NCBI RefSeq assembly: GCF_000013365.1
Contig: NC_007778.1
Location: 1,426,001 to 1,490,000 of the forward strand
Direction: 5' to 3'
From: Rhodopseudomonas palustris HaA2
Lineage (GTDB): Bacteria > Pseudomonadota > Alphaproteobacteria > Rhizobiales > Xanthobacteraceae
DNA length: 64,000 bases
Made by a program: the position numbers and the translations under genes. Below the pieces are notes generated by a model. That model was not told the DNA's origin and did not search any database. It saw only the letters and a list, made by a program, of their open reading frames with translations. Every line of letters starts with the position of its first letter. Position 1 is the stretch's first letter. Shown one piece after another: positions 2,795 through 14,482 of this stretch.

Positions 2795-3713
<919 letters not shown>

Positions 3714-3724
<11 letters not shown>

Positions 3725-6700
3725 GGCGATACAGCGTGTTCAGGGTCTTCATGTACTGGTCGAGATCGAACTGCTCGACCAGCGCGCGCATCTGCGACAC
3801 GAACGTCCCCGATTCCGGATAGTCGTTGTCGATCTGATCGAGCTTGGATTCGATGCCGCGGATGTAGCCGATCTTGCCGAGCTCGATCAATTCCTCGACG
3901 TGCTGCATCGGCGGGCTTTGCATATCGCCCGTGGCCGCCGGCGTCTCGGGCGTTTCGCCTTTGTAGATCCATTCTATCTTGAGCAGCTGCCCGATCTGTT
4001 CGAGCAGCCGCGGAATGTCGACCGGCTTCATCAGGTAGCCGTCGTGGAACGGCTGCGCCAGCGGCGCGCCGTGCGCCTCGATCGCGCTCGCCGACACCAT
4101 CAGGATGCGGGCGTGGTGGTGGCCGTTGGTGCGCAGCGTCTCGGCCACGGTCCAGCCGTCCATGCCGGCCATCGAGATGTCGAGCAGGAACAGGTCGGGC
4201 TGGCAGTGTTCGGCGAGGCCGACGCAGGTGTAGCCGTCCGGCGCGCTCAGCACGATGAAGCCGAGCGGCGCCAGCAATTCCTGCAGCAGATTACGCTGCG
4301 CCGGATCGTCGTCGGTGATCAGGATGGTCTTGCGCGGGCCGTGATAGCCGAGGATCGGCGCGCGGATCGCGCGGGTGCGGGTCGGATTGGTGACTTCCGA
4401 CAGCAGCAGCTTGACGCGGAAGGTCGAGCCCTGGCCGAGCGTGCTGGTGACGCTGAGATCGCCGCCCATCACGCCGGCGAGCAGCTTGCTGATCGTCAGC
4501 CCGAGCCCGGTGCCGGTGTGCGGCTGCGATACGCCGAGCGCGCCGCGTTCGAACGGCGCGAAGATCCGCTCCAGATCGTCGGCATGGATGCCCGGGCCGG
4601 TGTCGCGCACTTCGAGCTCGGCCACCGGGTTGCGATAATGCACGATGAAATGCACGCTGCCTTCTTGCGTGAACTTGATCGCGTTGGAGAGCAGATTGAT
4701 CAGCACCTGGCGCAGCCGCTTCTCGTCGGCGTAGACCACCGGCGGCAGATATTGCGGGCGCTTGAACACGAAGTCGACGTCCTTGGCGGTCGCCTGCAGC
4801 CGGAACATGCCGACGAGCTGGTCGAGAAATTCGCCGAACCGCACCTCGTCGCGCGACAGATACAGCCGGCCGGCCTCGATCTTGGAAATATCCAGCAATC
4901 CGTCGATCAGCCCGGAGAGATGATCGGCGCTGCGTCGCATCAGGCGAATCTGGTCGCGCGGGCGCGGCGGCAGGCTGGCGTCCTGTTCGAGCAATTGCGC
5001 GTAGCCGCTGATGGCGTTGAGCGGCGAGCGCAGCTCGTGGCTGAGGCCGACGACGTAGCGGCTCTTGGCGAGATTGGCCGATTCGGCGACCTCCTTGGCG
5101 CGCTGCAGCTCGGCGTCGGTCTGGCGGTGCGCGTCGATCTCCTGCATCAGCAGCGTGGTCTGGCGCCGGGTCTCGGCCTCGGCGGCCTGCCGGCTCTGCC
5201 GCGCCAGCACGAACAGCCAGGTCACCACGCCGATGATGATCGACAGCGCGAAGAACAGCTTCCAGAGAATTTCCGACAGCAGGATCTGCTGCGCGTCGGT
5301 GGCGGGTGCGGCCTGCAGATAGATCATCATCAGCGTCAGGCCGACCAGCCCGGCCGACACCATGAACACGCTGAGATAGTGCCCGACCTGCGAATTCAGC
5401 AGCGCATGGACGCGCTGCGGCAGCACCTTGCCGAGCGCGTCGGTGAATTGCGCGTCGAACCGCGCGTGCGGCTTGCACAGATCGTGGCAGCGGGCGTCGA
5501 GCGAGCAGCACAGCGAGCAGATCGGCCCGGCATAGGCCGGGCAATGCGCCATGTCCTCGGGCTCGAACGAATGCTCGCAGATGCAGCACTTGATCGCCGG
5601 CAGGTTCTGCCAGGAGCGCTTCGGCTTGCGCGCGATATAGAACCGGCCGCGGGTGAGCAGCGCGATCGCCGGCGCGGTGACGAACGCCACCAGCAACGCG
5701 ACGAACGGCGCCAGCGCCTTGGCGGTCGGCCCGAACACGCCGTAGAACGCGGTGATCGACATCACCGTGGCGATCGCCATCGAGCCGACGCCGACCGGAT
5801 TGATGTCGTAGAGATGCGCGCGCTTGAACTCCATCTGCCGCGGCCGCAGGCCCAGCGGCCGGTTGATGACCAGATCCGCCACTAGGGCGCCGACCCAGGC
5901 GATCGCCACGTTGGAATACAGCGCCAGCGTCTGCTCCAACGCCCTGTAGACGCCGATCTCCATCAGCAGCAGCGCCACCAGCACGTTGAACACCAGCCAG
6001 ACCACGCGGCCGGGATGCGAATGGGTCAGCCGCGAGAAGAAGTTCGACCAGGCGATCGAGCCCGCATAGGCGTTGGTGACGTTGATCTTGATCTGGGACA
6101 GCATCACGAAGGCGCCGGTCAGCGCAAGCGCCAGTTCGGGCTGCGCCAGCACGTAACGGAACGCCTCGCGATACATGTGCGACGGCTCCGCCGCGTCCTC
6201 CATGTCGAGGCCATGGCTCAGGGCGAAATAGGCGAGGAACGAGCCGGCCAGCAGCTTGATCGCGCCCGGCACGATCCAGCCCGGCCCGGCGCTGATCATC
6301 GCCGCCCACCACGCCGCCTTCGAGGTGCGGCGGTCGCGCGGCAGGAAGCGGAGAAAGTCGACCTGCTCGCCGATCTGCGCCACCAGCGCGAACACCACCG
6401 ACGCCGCGGTGCCGAACAGCAGCAGGTCGAGATGGCCCGCCGGATCGCCCTGCGCGCCGGCGAATCTGGTCCACTCTTCGAACGATTCCGGACTCTTGAT
6501 CGCGATCGCCGCGAACGGGAGGATGTGCAGCAGAATCCAGAACGGCTGGGTCCACAGTTGAAACCGGCTGATCAGCGTGATGCCGTGCGTCACCAGCGGA
6601 ATGATCACCACGGCGCTGAACAGATAGCCCAGCGCCAGCGGCAGCCCGAAACACATCTCCAGCGCCTTGGCGAGGATAACAGCCTCGATGGCGAAGAAGA

Positions 6701-7082
6701 TGAACGTAAATGAGGCATAGATCAGCGAGGTGATCGTCGATCCGATATAGCCGAATCCGGCGCCGCGCGTGAGCAAGTCTATATCGACGCCACATCTGGC
6801 TGCATGATAGGCAATCGGCAGGCCGCAGCAGAAGATGATGACGCTGACCACGAGGATCGCCGCGGTGGCGTTGGTGACGCCGTAATTCAGCGTGATGGTG
6901 CCGCCGATCGCCTCCAGCGCCAGGAACGAAATCGCGCCGAGCGCGGTGTTGGCGACCCGCAGCGCCGACCAGCGGCGCGCGCTCTTGGCGGTGAAGCGCA
7001 GCGCATAGTCTTCGAGCGTCTGGTTGGCGACCCATTGATTGTACTGGCGCCGAACGCGGTCTATGCGCTGCCGCCCAACCAC
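3714..7082 (-). CDS. NCS1-permease / Cys-cluster / hybrid histidine kinase-receiver fusion
   Basis: This 1122-residue chimera starts at GTG 7082; no in-frame ATG fits and AAGGAG lies 6 nt upstream. The frame stays open antisense to urtA, but that part is not coding. Residues ~20-480 form a 12-segment permease domain of the nucleobase-cation-symport-1 type (cytosine, purine, allantoin, thiamine). Residues 499-536 hold nine cysteines and two histidines. Two further membrane segments follow (~570-625) and a coiled coil (~630-670). The kinase has its H-box at H682 (SHELRSP), N-box near 796-800, DTGPG at 827 and GTGLGL at 857. The receiver has D924-D926, phospho-acceptor D968 and K1019. A C-terminal helical tail (1060-1122) has no clear HPt motif. 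By analogy with CbrA-type transporter-kinases, transport or binding probably controls kinase activity. It pairs with the response regulator gene and diverges from urt/fmd, so urea, amides or nucleobase degradation products are plausible ligands. Confidence 0.9.
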
Positions 7083-7241
7083 GCGCTTCTCCTTGTTTTT
7101 CGTCTCGCTCTGCTGCGTGAAAAATCTACGTCGCGATCTTGCGATGCAACATACGTGATCTTGCGTATCGGTACAGCCGAAAATTTCGCCGATCGTTTGC
7201 CCCGACTGCACACGCGTCCAAACAACACGAAGGGGTAGTTC
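7083..7241. promoter_or_regulatory. divergent promoter region, sensor kinase / urtA, with direct repeat
   Basis: The 159-bp gap between two divergent starts contains GATCTTGCG at 7135-7143 and again at 7157-7165, exactly 22 bp apart (two helical turns). The second copy lies within an inverted repeat ATACG-N8-CGTAT (about 7151-7168). An A/T-rich patch (GAAAAATC) lies at about 7119. This geometry suits a dimeric response regulator binding on one DNA face; the adjacent LuxR-type regulator is the natural candidate. No convincing sigma-70 or sigma-54 promoter could be fixed by eye. Confidence 0.55.
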
Positions 7242-8504
7242 ATGGCAGACGACAAAGACCAGGGCCTTCACTCGCCGTTCCGGCGCAAGCTTCTGATGGG
7301 GATGGCGGCCATCCCGGCGATGACGATGCTGCCGCGCACGTCGTTCGCCCAGGCGCCGGCGACCTCCGTCGTCAACACCACCGGCCTCGCCGTGACCGAC
7401 ACCGAGGTCACCGTCGGCATCCTGCACTCCGTCACGGGCACGATGGCGATCTCCGAGACCGGCTCGGTGCAGGCCGAGAAGCTCGCGATCGAGCAGATCA
7501 ACGCCGCCGGCGGCGTGCTCGGCCGCAAGATCAAGTACATCCAGGAGGACGGCGCGTCCGACTGGCCGAACTTCGCCGAGAAGGCCAAGAAGCTTCTCGT
7601 CAACGACAAATGCGCCGCGGTGATGGGCTGCTGGACCTCGGCCTCGCGCAAGGCGGTGCTGCCGGTGTTCGAGCAGTACAACGGCATGCTGTACTACCCG
7701 ACCTTCTACGAAGGCCTCGAGCAGTCCAAAAACGTCATCTACACCGGCCAGGAAGCCACCCAGCAGATCATCGCCGGCCTCGATTGGGTCAACAAGACCA
7801 AGAACGCCAAGAGCTTCTATCTGCTCGGCTCCGACTACATCTGGCCGCGCACCTCCAACAAGATCGCCCGCAAGCACATCGAGAATCACCTGCAGGGCTG
7901 CAAGGTCGTCGGCGAGGAGTACTTCCCGCTCGGCCACACCCAGTTCAACTCGGTGATCAACAAGATCAAGCTGACCAAGCCGGACGTGATCTACGCGATC
8001 ATCGTCGGCGGCTCCAACGTCGCGTTCTACAAGCAGCTCAAGGCGGCCGGCATCGATCTGTCGAAGCAGACCCTGCTCACCATCTCGGTCACCGAGGACG
8101 AGATCGACGGCATCGGCGGCGAGAACATCGCCGGCGCCTTCGCCTGCATGAAGTACTTTCAGTCGCTCGACAATCCGAACAACAAGGCATTCGTCGCCGC
8201 GTTCAAGAAGATGTGGGGCGAGAAGACGGTGATCGGAGACGTCACCCAGGCTGCCTATCTCGGCCCGTGGCTGTGGAAATTGACCGTCGAGAAGGCCGGC
8301 TCGTTCGACATCGACAAGGTGGCGGCGGCGTCGCCGGGCGTGGAATTCAAGGGCGCGCCGGAAGGCTACGTCCGGGTCCACGAAAACCACCACCTCTGGT
8401 CGAAGACCCGCGTCGGCAAGGCAAAGCTCGATGGCCAGTACGAACTGGTCTACGAGACCGCCGACCTGGTCGAGCCCGATCCGTTCCCGAAGGGCTATCA
8501 GTAA
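7242..8504 (+). CDS. urtA: urea/short-chain amide ABC transporter, substrate-binding protein
   Basis: This 420-residue periplasmic binding protein belongs to the UrtA/FmdD branch of the branched-chain amino-acid family. The N-terminus has SPFRRKLLMGMAAIPAM then SFAQA, a signal sequence with a twin-arginine pair that may be Tat-dependent. Diagnostic stretches are VGILHSVTGTMAISE, AAVMGCWTSASRKAVLP, YYPTFYEGLEQS and HLWSKTRVGKA. It delivers urea or short amides to the UrtBC permease. The gene starts the operon, with AAGGGG upstream of the ATG. Because formamidase genes close the operon, the FmdD name from Methylophilus-type amide uptake may describe the substrate better than urea. Confidence 0.93.
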   Translation: MADDKDQGLHSPFRRKLLMGMAAIPAMTMLPRTSFAQAPATSVVNTTGLAVTDTEVTVGILHSVTGTMAISETGSVQAEKLAIEQINAAGGVLGRKIKYIQEDGASDWPNFAEKAKKLLVNDKCAAVMGCWTSASRKAVLPVFEQYNGMLYYPTFYEGLEQSKNVIYTGQEATQQIIAGLDWVNKTKNAKSFYLLGSDYIWPRTSNKIARKHIENHLQGCKVVGEEYFPLGHTQFNSVINKIKLTKPDVIYAIIVGGSNVAFYKQLKAAGIDLSKQTLLTISVTEDEIDGIGGENIAGAFACMKYFQSLDNPNNKAFVAAFKKMWGEKTVIGDVTQAAYLGPWLWKLTVEKAGSFDIDKVAAASPGVEFKGAPEGYVRVHENHHLWSKTRVGKAKLDGQYELVYETADLVEPDPFPKGYQ

Positions 8505-8534
8505 GCGTCGGCAGACGCTTCCACACACACTCCG

Positions 8535-8611
8535 CGTCATGCGCGGGCTCGACCCGCGCATCCATCTCTCTTCGCAGAAGATGGATCGCCGGGTCGAGCC
8601 CGGCGATGACG
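8535..8611. repeat. palindromic intergenic repeat (CGTCATGCGCGGG type)
   Basis: The inverted repeat begins CGTCATGCGCGGGCTCGACC and returns as GGTCGAGCCCGGCGATGACG, with arms interrupted near CGCGCATCCATC / GATGGATCGCC. It lies between urtA and urtB. It is of the REP-like type common in Bradyrhizobiaceae and can form a long hairpin in RNA. That could attenuate the distal operon or stabilise the abundant urtA mRNA. Confidence 0.8.
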
Positions 8612-8682: not shown

Positions 8683-9609
8683 ATGTTCGGCGATTATTCC
8701 ATTGGCGATCTCGGCGCGATCTTCGCGATGCAGGGCTTCGCGGGTCTGATCCTGTTCTCGGTCTATGTGCTGATGGCGCTCGGGCTGGCGATCATCTTCG
8801 GCCAGATGGGCGTCATCAACATGGCGCATGGCGAGTTCATGATTCTCGGCGCCTACGTCACCTGGATGACGTCGAGCGCCTTTCAGGCCTATCTGCCGTC
8901 GCTGTTCCCCGGCTACTTCTTCGTCGCCATGATCCTGGCCTTCATCGCCGCGGGCGCGCTCGGCATGCTGGTCGAATGGGGGCTGATACGCCATCTCTAC
9001 AAGCGCCCGCTCGATACGCTGCTGGCGACCTGGGGCCTGTCGCTGATCCTGCAGCAGGCCTATCGGTCGATCTTCGGCGCGCGTGAAGTCGGCGTCGAGC
9101 TGCCGCAATGGATGCTCGGCTCCAAGCAGATCACCGACACCATCGAGGTGCCGATCAACGGCATCTTCGTGATGTGCCTGACCTTCCTGATCACCGCCGC
9201 CGTCGCCTATGTGATGTACAAATCGCGCTGGGGCCGCCAGGTTCGCGCCGTGGTGCAGAACCGGGTGATGGCCGGCGCCGTCGGCATCAACACCGAGAAG
9301 GTCGATCGCTACACTTTCGGGCTGGGCTGCGGCATCGCCGGAATCGCGGGTTCGGCCTTCACCATGATCGGCTCGACCGGGCCGACCTCCGGCCAGCTCT
9401 ACATCGTCGACACCTTCCTGGTCGTGGTGTTCGGCGGCGCGGCGAGCCTGTTCGGCACCATCGCATCGGCCTTCAGCATCTCGCAGGCGCAGTCGACCAT
9501 GGAGTTCTTCATGTCCGGCTCGATGGCCAAGGTGCTCACATTGCTCGCCATCGTCGCGATCCTGATGGTTCGCCCGCAAGGCCTGTTCGCCCTCAAGGTT
9601 CGCAAATAG
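8683..9609 (+). CDS. urtB: urea/amide ABC transporter permease UrtB (short form)
   Basis: This 308-residue LivH-type inner-membrane permease has about eight hydrophobic segments, the FGQMGVINMAHGEFMILGAY signature near the N-terminus and VFGGAASLFGTIASAF near the C-terminus. The common cyanobacterial and proteobacterial UrtB carries a long N-terminal periplasmic extension (over 500 residues); this copy lacks it and so resembles FmdE of amide-uptake systems. It forms the channel with UrtC, powered by UrtD and UrtE. The 178-nt gap from urtA is filled by a palindromic repeat, and urtC follows after 11 nt. Confidence 0.92.
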   Translation: MFGDYSIGDLGAIFAMQGFAGLILFSVYVLMALGLAIIFGQMGVINMAHGEFMILGAYVTWMTSSAFQAYLPSLFPGYFFVAMILAFIAAGALGMLVEWGLIRHLYKRPLDTLLATWGLSLILQQAYRSIFGAREVGVELPQWMLGSKQITDTIEVPINGIFVMCLTFLITAAVAYVMYKSRWGRQVRAVVQNRVMAGAVGINTEKVDRYTFGLGCGIAGIAGSAFTMIGSTGPTSGQLYIVDTFLVVVFGGAASLFGTIASAFSISQAQSTMEFFMSGSMAKVLTLLAIVAILMVRPQGLFALKVRK

Positions 9610-9620
9610 GAGTCATCGAC

Positions 9621-10772
9621 ATGGAAAGCCCGCGCTTTCTCAGCCGCTCCGACCTGATCGGTCTCGCCGCGCTCGCTCTGCTCCTGGTCGTGATCCTGCC
9701 GCTGTCGCTGGATGTGTTCCGCCTCAACCTGGTGGCGAAGTATCTGACCTACGCCTTCGTGGCGCTCGGTCTGGTGCTGTGCTGGGGCTTCGGCGGCATC
9801 TTGAGCCTCGGGCAGGGGGTGTTCTTCGGCCTCGGCGGCTACGGCATGGCGATGTATCTGAAGCTGGAAGCCTCCAGCGTCGCCAACACCAAGATCCAGT
9901 CCACGCCCGGCATCCCGGATTTCATGGACTGGAACCAGATCACGCAATTGCCGCTGTTCTGGCAGCCGTTCCACAGCCTGACGCTGACGATCCTCGCGAT
10001 CCTGATCGTGCCGACGCTGTTCGCCTATCTGATCGGCGCGGCGATGTTCAAGCGGCGCGTCGGCGGCGTGTATTTCGCCATCATCACCCAGGCGATCGCC
10101 GCGATCCTCACCATCCTGATCATCGGCCAGCAGGGCTACACCGGCGGCATCAACGGCATCACCGATCTGCGCACGCTGAAGGGCTGGGACATCCGTCCCG
10201 ACCACGCCAAGGTGGTGCTTTACTTCGTCGAGGTGGCGTTCCTGTTCGGCTGCATCCTGCTGGCGCTGTTCGTGCGCCACTCCAAGCTCGGCCGCATCCT
10301 GGTGGCGATGCGCGAGAAGGAGGACCGGGTGCGGTTCTCCGGCTACAGCGTCGCCAATTTCAAGATCTTCGCGTTCTGCCTGGCGGCGATGTTCGCGGCG
10401 ATCGGCGGCGCGATGTTCACGCTCAATGTCGGGTTCATGTCGCCGTCCTTCGTCGGCATCGTGCCGTCGATCGAGATGGTGATTTACACCGCGGTCGGCG
10501 GCCGGCTGTCGATCTTCGGCGCGATCTACGGGACGCTGCTGGTCAATTTCGCCAAGACCAGCCTGTCGGAATCCTTCCCGCAGCTCTGGTTGTTCGGGCT
10601 CGGCGCGCTGTTCATCGCGGTGGTGCTGATCTTCCCGAACGGACTCGCCGGGATCTGGCGCGACCACGTCCAGCCGCTGATCGACAAGGTCCTCAACAGG
10701 CGCAAATCCGGCTCGGATCACACCAGCGGCAAGACGCTCGGCCCGGTCGCCGGCGGCGCTCCGGCGGAATAG
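9621..10772 (+). CDS. urtC: urea/amide ABC transporter permease UrtC
   Basis: This 383-residue LivM-type permease has about ten membrane segments. Diagnostic features are GLVLCWGFGGILSLGQGVFF near residues 50-70, KRRVGGVYFAIITQAIAAIL, YTGGINGITDL and the EKEDRVRFSGYSVANFK loop that contacts the ATPases. The ATG at 9621 has AGGAG 9-10 nt upstream, and upstream codons in the same frame lie inside urtB. It has an extended polar C-terminus (GSDHTSGKTLGPVAGGAPAE). It is the second permease half of the heterodimeric channel. Confidence 0.93.
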   Translation: MESPRFLSRSDLIGLAALALLLVVILPLSLDVFRLNLVAKYLTYAFVALGLVLCWGFGGILSLGQGVFFGLGGYGMAMYLKLEASSVANTKIQSTPGIPDFMDWNQITQLPLFWQPFHSLTLTILAILIVPTLFAYLIGAAMFKRRVGGVYFAIITQAIAAILTILIIGQQGYTGGINGITDLRTLKGWDIRPDHAKVVLYFVEVAFLFGCILLALFVRHSKLGRILVAMREKEDRVRFSGYSVANFKIFAFCLAAMFAAIGGAMFTLNVGFMSPSFVGIVPSIEMVIYTAVGGRLSIFGAIYGTLLVNFAKTSLSESFPQLWLFGLGALFIAVVLIFPNGLAGIWRDHVQPLIDKVLNRRKSGSDHTSGKTLGPVAGGAPAE

Positions 10773-10783
10773 GGGAGGCAACC

Positions 10784-11539
<756 letters not shown>

Positions 11540-11568
11540 GCGATCTGACATGCGAACAGCCTCTCCCC

Positions 11569-11651
11569 CGTCATTGCGAGCGAAGCGAAGCAATCCAGCT
11601 CCGAGCACGGAGCCTGTGGATTGCTTCGTCGCTTCGCTCCTCGCAATGACG
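11569..11651. repeat. palindromic repeat, CGTCATTGCGAGC family (copy 1)
   Basis: The arms read CGTCATTGCGAGCGAAGCGA and, on return, CGCTTCGCTCCTCGCAATGACG, with inner arms AAGCAATCCA / TGGATTGCTTCG. Three more copies occur in the window (13833, 14389, 60824). The intergenic location, imperfect palindrome and multiple copies identify a dispersed REP/RPE-like element and not a gene. Confidence 0.88.
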
Positions 11652-11836: not shown

Positions 11837-12526
11837 ATGCTCGCTATCAACGATCTGCACGTCGCCTACGGCCAGAGCGAGGTGCTGCACGGGCTCAATA
11901 TCGACGTCGCGCCGAACGAGATCGTCGCGATCATGGGCCGCAACGGCATGGGCAAGACCACGCTGATGAAGTCGCTGATGGGCATCATCCCGCAGCGCAA
12001 GGGTTCGATCTCGATGGAAGGCGCCGAGCTCGGCGGCCTCAAGAGCTACGAGCGCGTCGCCAAGGGGCTGGCTTACGTGCCGCAGGGCCGGATGATCTTC
12101 TCGACCATGACGGTGAAGGAGAACATCGAGACCGGCCTCGTCGTCTCCGGCGAAAAGGATGTGCCGGGCGATCTCTACGAGCTGTTTCCGGTGCTGCTGG
12201 AGATGAAGAGCCGCCGCGGCGGCAATTTGTCCGGCGGTCAGCAACAGCAACTCGCGATCGCCCGCGCGCTCGCCACCAGGCCGAAAGTGCTGCTGCTGGA
12301 CGAGCCGACCGAGGGCATCCAGCCGTCCATCATCAAGGAGATGGGGCGGACGCTGAAGCGCATCCGCGACACCAAGGGCCTGTCGATCATCGTCTCCGAG
12401 CAGGTGCTGAGCTTCGCGCTCGACGTCGCCGACCGCGTGCTGGTGATCGAGAACGGCGAGATCGTCCGCGACGAGCCGCGCGCCAGCGTCGACGAGGCGC
12501 AGGTCGCCAAATATCTGTCCGTCTGA
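11837..12526 (+). CDS. urtE: urea/amide ABC transporter ATP-binding protein UrtE
   Basis: This 229-residue LivF-type ATPase has Walker A GRNGMGKTT at 34-42, ABC signature NLSGGQQQQLAIARAL, Walker B VLLLDEPTEGIQ and a switch residue glutamine (VSEQVLSFAL) where many ATPases have histidine, as is normal for UrtE/LivF. GAGGAG lies about 9 nt upstream of the ATG. It pairs with UrtD. The intervening repeats mean that it may have its own expression level. Confidence 0.92.
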   Translation: MLAINDLHVAYGQSEVLHGLNIDVAPNEIVAIMGRNGMGKTTLMKSLMGIIPQRKGSISMEGAELGGLKSYERVAKGLAYVPQGRMIFSTMTVKENIETGLVVSGEKDVPGDLYELFPVLLEMKSRRGGNLSGGQQQQLAIARALATRPKVLLLDEPTEGIQPSIIKEMGRTLKRIRDTKGLSIIVSEQVLSFALDVADRVLVIENGEIVRDEPRASVDEAQVAKYLSV

Positions 12527-12571: not shown

Positions 12572-13801
12572 ATGCCAGAGACACTGATCAAGGTCGATCT
12601 CACGCAGTCCGCCTACGACAACGAGATGGTCCACAACCGCTGGCACCCGGACATTCCGATGGCGGCGTGGGTCAATCCCGGCGACGACTTCATCGTCGAG
12701 ACCTACGACTGGACCGGCGGCTTCATCAAGAACAACGACAGCGCCGACGACGTCCGCGATATCGACCTGTCGATCGTGCACTTCCTGTCGGGGCCGATCG
12801 GCGTCAAGGGCGCCGAGCCGGGCGACCTGCTGGTGGTCGACCTGCTCGACGTCGGCCCGATGAAGGAGAGCCTGTGGGGCTTCAACGGCTTCTTCTCCAA
12901 GCAGAACGGCGGCGGCTTCCTGACCGATCACTTCCCGCTGGCGCAGAAGTCGATCTGGGACTTCAAGGGCATGTACACCTCGTCGCGCCACATCCCGGGC
13001 GTGAACTTCGCCGGCCTGATCCATCCCGGCCTGATCGGCTGTCTGCCGGATCCGAAGCTGCTCGCAACCTGGAACGAGCGCGAGACCGGCCTGATCGCCA
13101 CCAACCCGACCCGCGTGCCCGGCCTCGCCAATCCGCCGTTCGGCCCGACCGCGCATATGGGCAAGCTCACCGGCGACGCCAAGGCGAAAGCCGGAGCGGA
13201 AGGCGCCCGCACCGTGCCGCCGCGCGAGCACGGCGGCAATTGCGACATCAAGGACCTGTCGCGCGGCTCCAAGATCTTCTTCCCGGTCTATGTGCCGGGC
13301 GGCGGCCTGTCGATGGGCGACCTGCATTTCAGCCAGGGCGACGGCGAGATCACCTTCTGCGGCGCCATCGAGATGGCCGGCTGGCTGCACATCAAGGTCG
13401 ACATCATCAAGGACGGCGTCTCGAAATACGGCATCAAGAATCCGATCTTCAAGCCGTCGCCGGTGACGCCGAACTACAAGGACTATCTGATCTTCGAAGG
13501 CATCTCGGTCGACGAGCAGGGCCAGCAGCATTATCTCGACGTCACCGTCGCGTATCGCCAGGCCTGCCTGAACGCCATCGAGTATCTGAAGAAGTTCGGC
13601 TACTCCGGCGCCCAGGCCTATTCGATCCTCGGCACCGCCCCGGTGCAGGGCCACATCTCCGGCGTCGTCGACGTCCCCAACGCCTGCGCCACGCTGTGGC
13701 TGCCGACCGAGATCTTCGATTTCGACATGATGCCGTCCTCGGCCGGCCCGGTCAAACACATCAAGGGCGACATCCAGATGCCGATCTCGCAGGACAAGTA
13801 A
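12572..13801 (+). CDS. fmdA: formamidase (FmdA/AmdA family)
   Basis: This 409-residue cytoplasmic amidohydrolase of the acetamidase/formamidase family hydrolyses formamide (and more slowly short amides) to formate and ammonia. The length matches FmdA of Methylophilus. Recognisable stretches include NRWHPDIPMAAWVNPGDDF, GPIGVKGAEPGDLLVVDLL, HPGLIGCLPDPKLLATWNER, REHGGNCDIKDLSRGSKIFF and CGAIEMAGWLHIKVD. It is not related to amidases of the Ser-Ser-Lys type. It lies 45 nt after urtE with GGGGAGC at the start site, and so completes an uptake-plus-hydrolysis operon for amide nitrogen. Confidence 0.95.
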   Translation: MPETLIKVDLTQSAYDNEMVHNRWHPDIPMAAWVNPGDDFIVETYDWTGGFIKNNDSADDVRDIDLSIVHFLSGPIGVKGAEPGDLLVVDLLDVGPMKESLWGFNGFFSKQNGGGFLTDHFPLAQKSIWDFKGMYTSSRHIPGVNFAGLIHPGLIGCLPDPKLLATWNERETGLIATNPTRVPGLANPPFGPTAHMGKLTGDAKAKAGAEGARTVPPREHGGNCDIKDLSRGSKIFFPVYVPGGGLSMGDLHFSQGDGEITFCGAIEMAGWLHIKVDIIKDGVSKYGIKNPIFKPSPVTPNYKDYLIFEGISVDEQGQQHYLDVTVAYRQACLNAIEYLKKFGYSGAQAYSILGTAPVQGHISGVVDVPNACATLWLPTEIFDFDMMPSSAGPVKHIKGDIQMPISQDK

Positions 13802-13832
13802 TTGCGTTCGAGTCGGGGTGACCACCTTTCCC

Positions 13833-13915
13833 CGTCATTGCGAGGAGCGAAGCGACGAAGCAATCCAGAGGCTCAGTGCACCGCGCTGGATTGCTTCGCT
13901 TCGCTCGCAATGACG
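13833..13915. repeat. palindromic repeat, CGTCATTGCGAG family (copy 2)
   Basis: The element begins CGTCATTGCGAGGAGCGAAG and ends CTTCGCTCGCAATGACG, with inner AAGCAATCCAGAG / GGATTGCTTCG arms. It lies between fmdA and fmdB. Rest of the 231-nt gap: no other feature was seen except the fmdB ribosome-binding site AAGGGAAACG. Confidence 0.88.
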
Positions 13916-14032: not shown

Positions 14033-14377
14033 ATGCCAGTCTATGAATACATGTGCGACGCCTGCGGGCCGTTCACCGATCTGCGGCCGATGGCCGAATA
14101 CGAGGCGCCGCAGCCGTGCCCGGTGTGCGAAACCTCGTCGCCGCGGGTGCTGCTCACCGCGCCGAACTTCTCCTGCATGCCGGCGTCGCAGCGCAATGCG
14201 CACGCCACCAACGAGAAGAGCAAGCACGCGCCGATGAGCGTCGGCGAATACAAGGCCAAGCACGCGCCGGGCTGCGGCTGCTGCTCCGGCCTGAAGAAGC
14301 CGGCGCGGTTGCAGACCCGCACCAAGAGCGGCGCCAAGGGCTTTCCGACGGCGCGGCCGTGGATGATCAGCCACTGA
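14033..14377 (+). CDS. fmdB: FmdB-family zinc-ribbon regulatory protein
   Basis: This 114-residue protein has a rubredoxin-like zinc ribbon: C8-x2-C11 and C29-x2-C32 (YEYMCDACG ... CPVCE). A basic tail contains a second small cysteine cluster (GCGCC) and repeated Lys residues. FmdB proteins accompany formamidase genes and were proposed to regulate them; the exact mechanism is not proven. AAGGGAAACG precedes the ATG. It closes the urt/fmd operon after a palindromic repeat, so it may be transcribed at a lower level. Confidence 0.9.
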   Translation: MPVYEYMCDACGPFTDLRPMAEYEAPQPCPVCETSSPRVLLTAPNFSCMPASQRNAHATNEKSKHAPMSVGEYKAKHAPGCGCCSGLKKPARLQTRTKSGAKGFPTARPWMISH

Positions 14378-14388
14378 GGTTTCCTCTC

Positions 14389-14469
14389 CGTCATTGCGAG
14401 CGAAGCGAAGCAATCCACGCCCCGCATGCGGCGCTGGATTGCTTCGTCGCTTCGCTCCTCGCAATGACG
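14389..14469. repeat. palindromic repeat, CGTCATTGCGAG family (copy 3)
   Basis: The arms are CGTCATTGCGAGCGAAGCGA and CGCTTCGCTCCTCGCAATGACG, with inner AAGCAATCCACG / TGGATTGCTTCG. It sits between the convergent fmdB and cobS genes, where it could act as a bidirectional terminator-like hairpin, although there is no T-run. Confidence 0.88.
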
Positions 14470-14482
14470 GGAGGTTGTCGGA

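Follow-up and report, generated by a model that had tools for sequence, protein, structure and literature searches.

The window described here is a stretch of 64,000 nucleotides from Rhodopseudomonas palustris HaA2 (contig NC_007778.1, positions 1,426,001 to 1,490,000), the genome of which is a single contig of 5,331,656 bases. Its minus strand codes for a hybrid sensor, in which a permease-like membrane domain, a module rich in cysteines, two additional transmembrane (TM) helices, a histidine kinase and a receiver domain are united in one protein. The gene of a LuxR-type response regulator overlaps the sensor gene, and an operon urtABCDE-fmdA, coding for a urea-type ABC transporter and a formamidase, diverges from it on the plus strand (Table 1). 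Both the overlapping partner and the divergent operon for urea/amide uptake and formamidase had been named in a preliminary description of the window, and coordinates as well as family models agree with them.

The sensor gene is read from a GTG start through 1122 codons without interruption and contains no frameshift. Relatives sharing 77-97% identity over the first 640 residues are encoded as single frames too, so the sensor is not a fusion created by assembly; the alternative that permease and kinase are separate genes joined through a frameshift in this assembly, or a chance fusion, is thereby ruled out. Pfam recognises HisKA (residues 673-738), HATPase_c (786-894) and Response_reg (920-1030), and the phosphorylatable H682 and D968 are identical in all 135 aligned relatives, which makes the protein a hybrid histidine kinase. 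Hydropathy reveals 12 membrane segments, a loop of 93 residues carrying the Cys cluster and 2 further segments; according to the positive-inside rule, the loop is predicted to face the cytoplasm. In an AlphaFold2 (AF2) model of residues 476-646, the TM pair is usable (block pLDDT, the predicted local distance difference test, 71-84 over approximately 566-646), and it shows the last helix of TM13-14 continuing into the kinase (pLDDT around 80). The composition proposed in the preliminary description, with a 12-helix permease, a helix pair, a kinase with H682 and a receiver with D968 in one 1122-residue protein, agrees with hydropathy, Pfam and alignments alike. The sensor frame stays open far upstream (3714-8561, minus strand): counted from the ATG at 8561 it comprises 1615 amino acids and runs opposite urtA, probably as a shadow frame in DNA of high GC content.

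Table 1. Features of the sensor locus (positions within the window)
Feature	Position	Strand	Basis or remark
Hybrid sensor gene, 1122 amino acids	3714..7082	-	NCS1-related permease + 8-Cys module + TM pair + HisKA/HATPase_c + receiver
NCS1-related 12-TM domain, residues 21-486	5625..7022	-	hydropathy, profile-profile match to PF02133 proteins
Cys module, residues 499-536, predicted cytoplasmic	5475..5588	-	C-x2-C-x11-C-x7-C-x2-CC-x5-C-x3-C
TM13-TM14 pair, residues 565-627	5202..5390	-	hydropathy and AF2; TM14 continues as helix towards kinase
HisKA domain with H682	4869..5066	-	Pfam, alignment
HATPase_c domain	4401..4727	-	Pfam
Receiver domain with D968	3993..4325	-	Pfam, alignment
Response regulator, receiver + LuxR/GerE DNA-binding domain	2795..3724	-	11-nt overlap with sensor gene
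Dyad ATACGTGATCTTGCGTAT, proposed operator of the LuxR-type regulator	7151..7168	.	only exact consensus site in the 5.33-Mb genome
UrtA, urea-type ABC substrate-binding protein	7242..8504	+	TIGR03407 above cut-off
UrtB	8683..9609	+	TIGR03409 above cut-off
UrtC	9699..10655	+	TIGR03408 above cut-off; model-matched stretch, start not fixed, open reading frame to 10772
UrtD	10787..11539	+	TIGR03411 above cut-off
UrtE	11837..12526	+	TIGR03410 above cut-off
FmdA formamidase	12572..13801	+	NF045496 equivalog, 760 bits (cut-off 500); PF03069
Presumed FmdB-like small zinc-ribbon protein	14033..14377	+	open reading frame; name partly from annotated genes after fmdA elsewhere

Comparison of sequence profiles identifies the membrane domain as NCS1-related, and we call this kinship remote because none of 38 fusions scanned singly is detected by the model PF02133 (Transp_cyt_pur). 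A profile of 38 N-terminal parts of fusions (A1), aligned with a profile of 23 PF02133 proteins (A4) by HH profile-profile comparison, gave a probability of 98.8 and E of 1.4e-16 over 382 columns; the A4 profile in turn matches Mhp1 and CodB in the PDB. As controls, A1 reached a probability of 0.1 with NCS2 permeases and 1.1 (E 0.048) with SSS/SLC5 permeases, and kinship with NCS2 or with the SLC5 domain of CbrA was rejected on these values. The homology is collinear over the permease core and is accompanied by 12 TM helices found by hydropathy. Mhp1, CodB and other NCS1 permeases, which share it over about 380 columns, have no kinase, and the window protein lies below the Pfam cut-off for them. 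Residues 1-640 gave no Pfam match even at E 10, and the N-terminal part no PDB match either as a single sequence or as the A1 profile. A stand-alone permease of Klebsiella, 43% identical over 519 aligned columns, scores above the PF02133 cut-off (37.7 vs 23.5 bits). The NCS1-type permease of the preliminary description is thus right but remote: the profiles match, PF02133 itself is silent. Polar residues E133, Q236, E239, Q240, K332, N334 and N337 are common to at least 97% of 59 fusions and to all nine stand-alone permeases, which suggests one ligand site shared by both forms. In the permease-domain tree, stand-alone forms and forms with a short kinase each fall on one side of a supported branch; its outgroup branch is very long, so the tree does not decide whether permease or fusion came first.

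Nine Cys (residues 499, 500, 502, 514, 522, 525, 526, 532 and 536) lie within 38 residues, exactly as first described, and their chance occurrence is 8e-11 by a naive binomial with an assumed Cys frequency of 0.95%. Conservation in homologues, on which the preliminary description had made its case depend, extends to eight of the nine: all except C500 (100 of 135) are present in 135 of 135 aligned distinct fusions. The exact pattern C-x2-C-x11-C-x7-C-x2-CC-x5-C-x3-C was found in 176 of 180 distinct proteins, the exceptions being one fragment and three stand-alone permeases. Among the nine stand-alone permeases, Methylovirgula alone has all eight Cys. Six others (Klebsiella, A. ursingii, A. baumannii, Moraxella and two Streptomyces) keep 499/502/522/525 and lack 526/532/536; in the remaining two (Arthrobacter, Tsukamurella), 502/522/525 are lost too and 499 is kept. 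Such patterns of loss look like two structural metal sites. We infer that site A consists of Cys 499/502/522/525 and site B of Cys 514/526/532/536; C514 is the least sure member of site B, because both Streptomyces permeases retain it. Interleaved in this way, the putative sites resemble cross-brace zinc modules. Zinc as the metal is a guess, with iron as the alternative. No confident relative of the module was found in Pfam or the PDB: of 22 modules scanned, 2 matched Prok-RING_1, both weakly (best E 0.018), and the PDB search returned weak zinc-finger fragments at most. The earlier suggestion that the module adds redox or metal input is so far not supported; the patterns of Cys loss look structural.

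The best-matching named records come mostly from Rhodopseudomonas, Afipia, Tardiphaga and Bradyrhizobium. The N-terminal part of the sensor was matched in 23 of 61 relatives and in 64 of 249 genomes of the order (weak matches included). Of 398 genomes sampled from the phylum, 62 gave a match at E <= 0.001, 52 with strong matches (E <1e-100, frames of at least 894 amino acids) and 10 with weak ones (frames of 94-623 amino acids). In a plasmid collection, some records of which are chromosome-sized, 535 of 72,556 records matched the N-terminal part, the whole fusion not being confirmed record by record; 342 of them belong to Klebsiella. Judged by these comparisons, the sensor type is real, conserved and widespread.

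Gene neighbourhood was compared in 68 fusion loci, which comprise 59 of 60 genome stretches chosen for diversity from among the genome matches (some genomes give two loci) and 9 loci of the plasmid collection; neither the loci of stand-alone permeases (L152, L153, L159) nor the 80 closer loci L024-L103 are among them. Urea-uptake, urease or amidase genes lie nearby in 66 of the 68, vs none of 20 control regions (20-kb stretches, one each from 20 of the same genomes). Counted as overlapping sets, urt genes accompany 54 loci, urease genes 13 and amidase-type genes (FmdA, AmiF or AmiE) 40. The two unlinked loci are L193, on a contig of 4.8 kb, and L249 of A. baumannii. The closer loci are linked in 77 of 80 cases, and the exceptions (L042, L068, L098) are all cut within 600 bases upstream. 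Wherever a fusion longer than 1000 amino acids is followed by at least 1 kb of sequence, the regulator is its same-strand neighbour (60/60). Annotated examples include urt with fmdA and fmdB in Chelatococcus, Azospirillum and Burkholderia, and urt with amiF on a Klebsiella plasmid; in Mitsuaria the neighbours are urease genes, and in Thioclava urt lies downstream of the regulator. Five shorter fusions of 878-886 amino acids (L191, L192, L215, L216, L217) carry the same permease-Cys-TM module on a different, shorter kinase and lie beside fmdA. They are called receiver-less from their length and from the reading of four of the five sequences, and a regulator of the usual kind was not found in their stretches.

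Stand-alone sister permeases, annotated as 'cytosine permease' or 'allantoin permease', occur in similar company. In K. pneumoniae such a gene (L152:8941-10548) lies after ureG, in A. ursingii (L250:7959-9566) it heads ureEFGJDABC, in Moraxella it diverges from fmdA-fmdB and in Tsukamurella it is near fmdA. Neither urease nor formamidase genes were found in the vicinity of the permeases of S. angustmyceticus and Arthrobacter (by annotation) or S. chartreusis (by tblastn). Methylovirgula combines the fusion, the regulator, a stand-alone permease, fmdA-fmdB and an aliphatic amidase, with no urt gene in the stretch of 25.5 kb, as if the permease had replaced Urt. Permeases of the L152/L250 type are likely to form an unrecognised family for urea or amides. 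The two permeases of urease operons, L152 and L250, end in a CxxC...CSLC tail. On a Moraxella osloensis plasmid (L251:10765-16380), the fmdA-permease pair lies near insertion sequences and annotated aminoglycoside-resistance genes. A more distant, Cys-less NCS1-related permease (L159:7949-12984) is followed by a nitrilase-like gene and, as read from translations, by apparent AmiC-like and AmiR-like genes; it represents another apparent amide-linked branch.

Between the sensor gene and urtA lies the dyad ATACGTGATCTTGCGTAT. The upstream regions of 68 close relatives (the window among them) have such a dyad in common, with exact ATACGC-N6-GCGTAT in 45. A different, diverse set of 68 upstream regions consists of the window and loci L151-L218 without L193 and includes three stand-alone permease loci. 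In it, TACG-N8-CGTA was found in 29 regions vs a shuffled mean of 0.4; any other spacing from 4 to 15 occurred in at most 1 region, and control blocks contained the motif in 2 of 980 cases. A dyad score of at least 10 of 12 was reached in 39 of the 68 diverse regions vs about 3.5% of shuffles. Among seven other genomes scanned, G095 and G474 have sites in the sensor-urtA intergenic region. G200 has the dyad before urtA, with the kinase gene about 12 kb away, and G414 has an exact copy before fmdA and two looser ones before urtA; G160, which is not known to hold a fusion, has no site. In A. baumannii, TACG-N8-CGTA stands between the fusion and the stand-alone permease. The dyad thus appears to be associated with urtA, fmdA or the permease and less with the kinase gene, a distribution expected of an operator of the regulator. 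No sigma54 site was found in the intergenic regions of the 68 close relatives with the one pattern used, and no sigma70-like promoter in the intergenic region.

A system of this type is very probably already in print; what is said here and below of published systems refers to the accessible passages of the cited papers. AmsSR/StkSR of A. baumannii resembles the window system in its 14 predicted TM segments, a hybrid kinase without Hpt and a LuxR-type regulator (PMC10112286, PMC9146086). The fusion of A. baumannii NZ_CP104448.1 is 50% identical to the window sensor over residues 4-639, has all eight Cys and overlaps its regulator by exactly 4 nucleotides, the published overlap; it fits AmsSR/StkSR. 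Like the window locus it has a dyad in front, but it diverges from a stand-alone permease, whereas the window sensor diverges from urt. Matched by such features, not by locus tag, AmsSR/StkSR is very probably a member of the sensor family. It was published as a regulator of alternative metabolism or of the colistin response (PMC10112286, PMC9146086); 'urea' is absent from the main texts of both papers, and neither the permease fold nor the Cys module is named for it in their accessible passages. The preliminary description knew of no NCS1 version of a transporter-kinase sensor with a Cys cluster. This holds insofar as no description of an NCS1-kinase fusion was found in the titles, abstracts and passages of the literature searched, subscription papers being mostly outside this scope; it has to be qualified insofar as AmsSR/StkSR, very probably such a protein, has been published.

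We propose, with fair confidence, that the sensor is a 'transceptor' (a transporter-derived sensor) for urea or short amides, which controls the urt-fmd genes through its LuxR-type partner. A nitrogen-source sensor, as the protein had been described beforehand, is well supported by comparative evidence: the neighbourhood counts, the loci of the sister permeases and the dyad at urtA and fmdA promoters. The proposed ligand of the permease part is urea or a short-chain amide (formamide, acetamide), which this domain would bind and possibly not transport. The Cys module would hold two four-Cys metal sites, with zinc as the likeliest metal, and so stiffen the joint between TM12 and TM13. The conformational change of the permease upon binding could then pass through this metal-braced joint and TM13-14, the final helix of which leads into the kinase, and reach H682; from there phosphate would travel to D968 and on to the regulator, with or without an Hpt protein as intermediate. 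The phosphorylated regulator would bind ATACGY-N6-RCGTAT at 7151-7168 and activate urtABCDE-fmdA and possibly its own operon. In this scheme we infer the ligand, the metal, activation rather than repression and any Hpt step. Other authors have suggested that Urt, where it is linked to fmdA, may carry formamide (PMC13209695).

Several observations weigh against this proposal. ATACGY-N6-RCGTAT has one site in its own genome, and so has the reversed control pattern; because the control is equally frequent, position and not count carries the argument from the dyad, and the idea of a genome-wide rare site was dropped. The dyad score remains below 10 of 12 in 29 of the 68 diverse regions; every one of the five short fusions is in this group, as are 7 of the urease-linked loci, 13 in all, of which only L212 has exact TACG-N8-CGTA. 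Either the operator is therefore not universal, or its place is not in front of the sensor gene. Genome G307 has two dyad sites, neither near the fusion, and G283 has none. In S. meliloti, urtA is separated from the sensor by three genes. The phenotypes published for A. baumannii relate to colistin and to energy metabolism and have no connection with urea (PMC10112286, PMC9146086), and the induction of AmsSR by carbonyl cyanide m-chlorophenylhydrazone (CCCP), together with its metabolic phenotypes, speaks against a pure urea reading (PMC10112286). As to structure, the gathering score of PF02133 was reached neither by the window protein nor by 37 diverse A1 relatives scanned singly, and the AF2 model of residues 1-646, with pLDDT 44.9, is unusable for recognising a LeuT-type fold in the membrane domain. 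Structure prediction of the linker, recommended in the preliminary description for residues 480-630 and made for residues 476-646, served for the TM pair and failed for the Cys module, where pLDDT stayed below 50 and a fold was not obtained.

The same A. baumannii data lend some weight to a sensor mainly of energy or redox state, in which the Cys module (as an Fe-S or thiol/zinc switch) or the state of the membrane would be the signal and the urea/amide genes one output. In AmsSR, which probably belongs to the family, CCCP acts as an inducer, and mutants of the system show altered membrane potential, pH and respiration (PMC10112286). Eight invariant, predicted cytoplasmic Cys would suit such a role, as would the respiratory genes near two fusions, cytochrome bd in Thioclava and nos in Chelatococcus. 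These two neighbours differ, however, and occur once each, whereas urea/amide genes are linked in 66 of 68 loci, and the authors of AmsSR discuss a single Cys aligned with ArcB, not the Cys module (PMC10112286). A structural role is suggested by the kinase-less stand-alone permeases, six of which, out of nine, retain four of the Cys. We consider the energy or redox sensor unlikely.

Classical ligands of NCS1 permeases are hydantoins and nucleobases. If the permease part bound or transported such a substrate (allantoin, a hydantoin or a nucleobase), the urea/amide genes would process its breakdown products, and both the NCS1 kinship and the annotation of sister permeases as 'cytosine' or 'allantoin' permeases would fit. 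Yet no allantoinase, hydantoinase or purine-breakdown gene occurs in the annotated stretches examined, where the recurring neighbours are urt, ure, fmdA, fmdB and amidase/nitrilase genes, and the polar positions common to fusions and stand-alone permeases suggest one shared ligand; a classical substrate seems to us distinctly improbable. We hold it for very improbable indeed that the Cys module is a sensor of Ni or Zn, matching the metallation of the enzymes to their substrate. Nickel-dependent urease genes adjoin 13 of the 68 loci and FmdB-like zinc-ribbon proteins recur beside fmdA, which favours such a sensor, but 53 of the 66 linked loci have no urease gene within the fetched stretch and their eight Cys are unchanged, and four of the eight are also found in the six kinase-less permeases mentioned above.

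With its NCS1-related domain, the sensor adds another permease fold to the transporter-kinase sensors, besides SLC5 and Amt. CbrA and CrbS/MxtR are likewise composed of a permease domain, a linker module and a histidine kinase, and CrbS also possesses a receiver, together with a LuxR-type regulator whose operator is an inverted repeat (PMC7918813, PMC13022988, PMC5715377); receiver and regulator recur in the window system, with the dyad as putative operator. In contrast, their permease is an SLC5 (SSS) domain, a family that the A1 profile matches with an HH probability of 1.1% vs 98.8% for NCS1, and they have STAC and PAS where the window sensor has the 8-Cys module and the TM pair. Ks-Amt5 also uses a nitrogen-source transporter as sensory domain of a histidine kinase and is said to bind without translocating; it differs in its Amt fold and its ligand, ammonium, and no Cys module is named for it in the accessible text (PMC5764959).

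For a wider proposal we find the case evenly balanced: that these proteins form a separate, widespread class of transceptors, with an NCS1-derived urea/amide receptor and an undescribed 8-Cys zinc module mounted on two kinds of kinases, and with stand-alone sisters that are an unrecognised family for urea/amide uptake in urease operons of Klebsiella and Acinetobacter. Should this be true, AmsSR/StkSR and the two-component genes beside urt-amiF on Klebsiella plasmids would be urea/amide-sensing systems. A preprint on Klebsiella CG307 names the urt-amiF cluster 'UTS' (PMC13060141); 'two-component' and 'histidine kinase' are absent from its main text. Two two-component systems, one of A. baumannii and one on many Klebsiella plasmids, receive a new explanation to be tested, together with a possible function for the 'cytosine' or 'allantoin' permeases of urease operons and a Cys module without confident family match in Pfam or the PDB. 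Ligand class, operator sequence and target operon are supplied as testable predictions.

The gene that follows fmdA in the window codes for a small protein which we take to be an FmdB-like zinc ribbon; FmdB or zinc-ribbon genes recur next to fmdA in other annotated loci. In this part of the window, an intergenic repeat of about 83 nucleotides with the arm CGTCATTGCGAGCGAAGCGAAGCAATCCA also occurs three times (11568-11651, 13831-13915 and 14388-14471). The copies are located just after urtD, fmdA and the FmdB-like gene, and one pair of them is inverted, with 94% complementarity.

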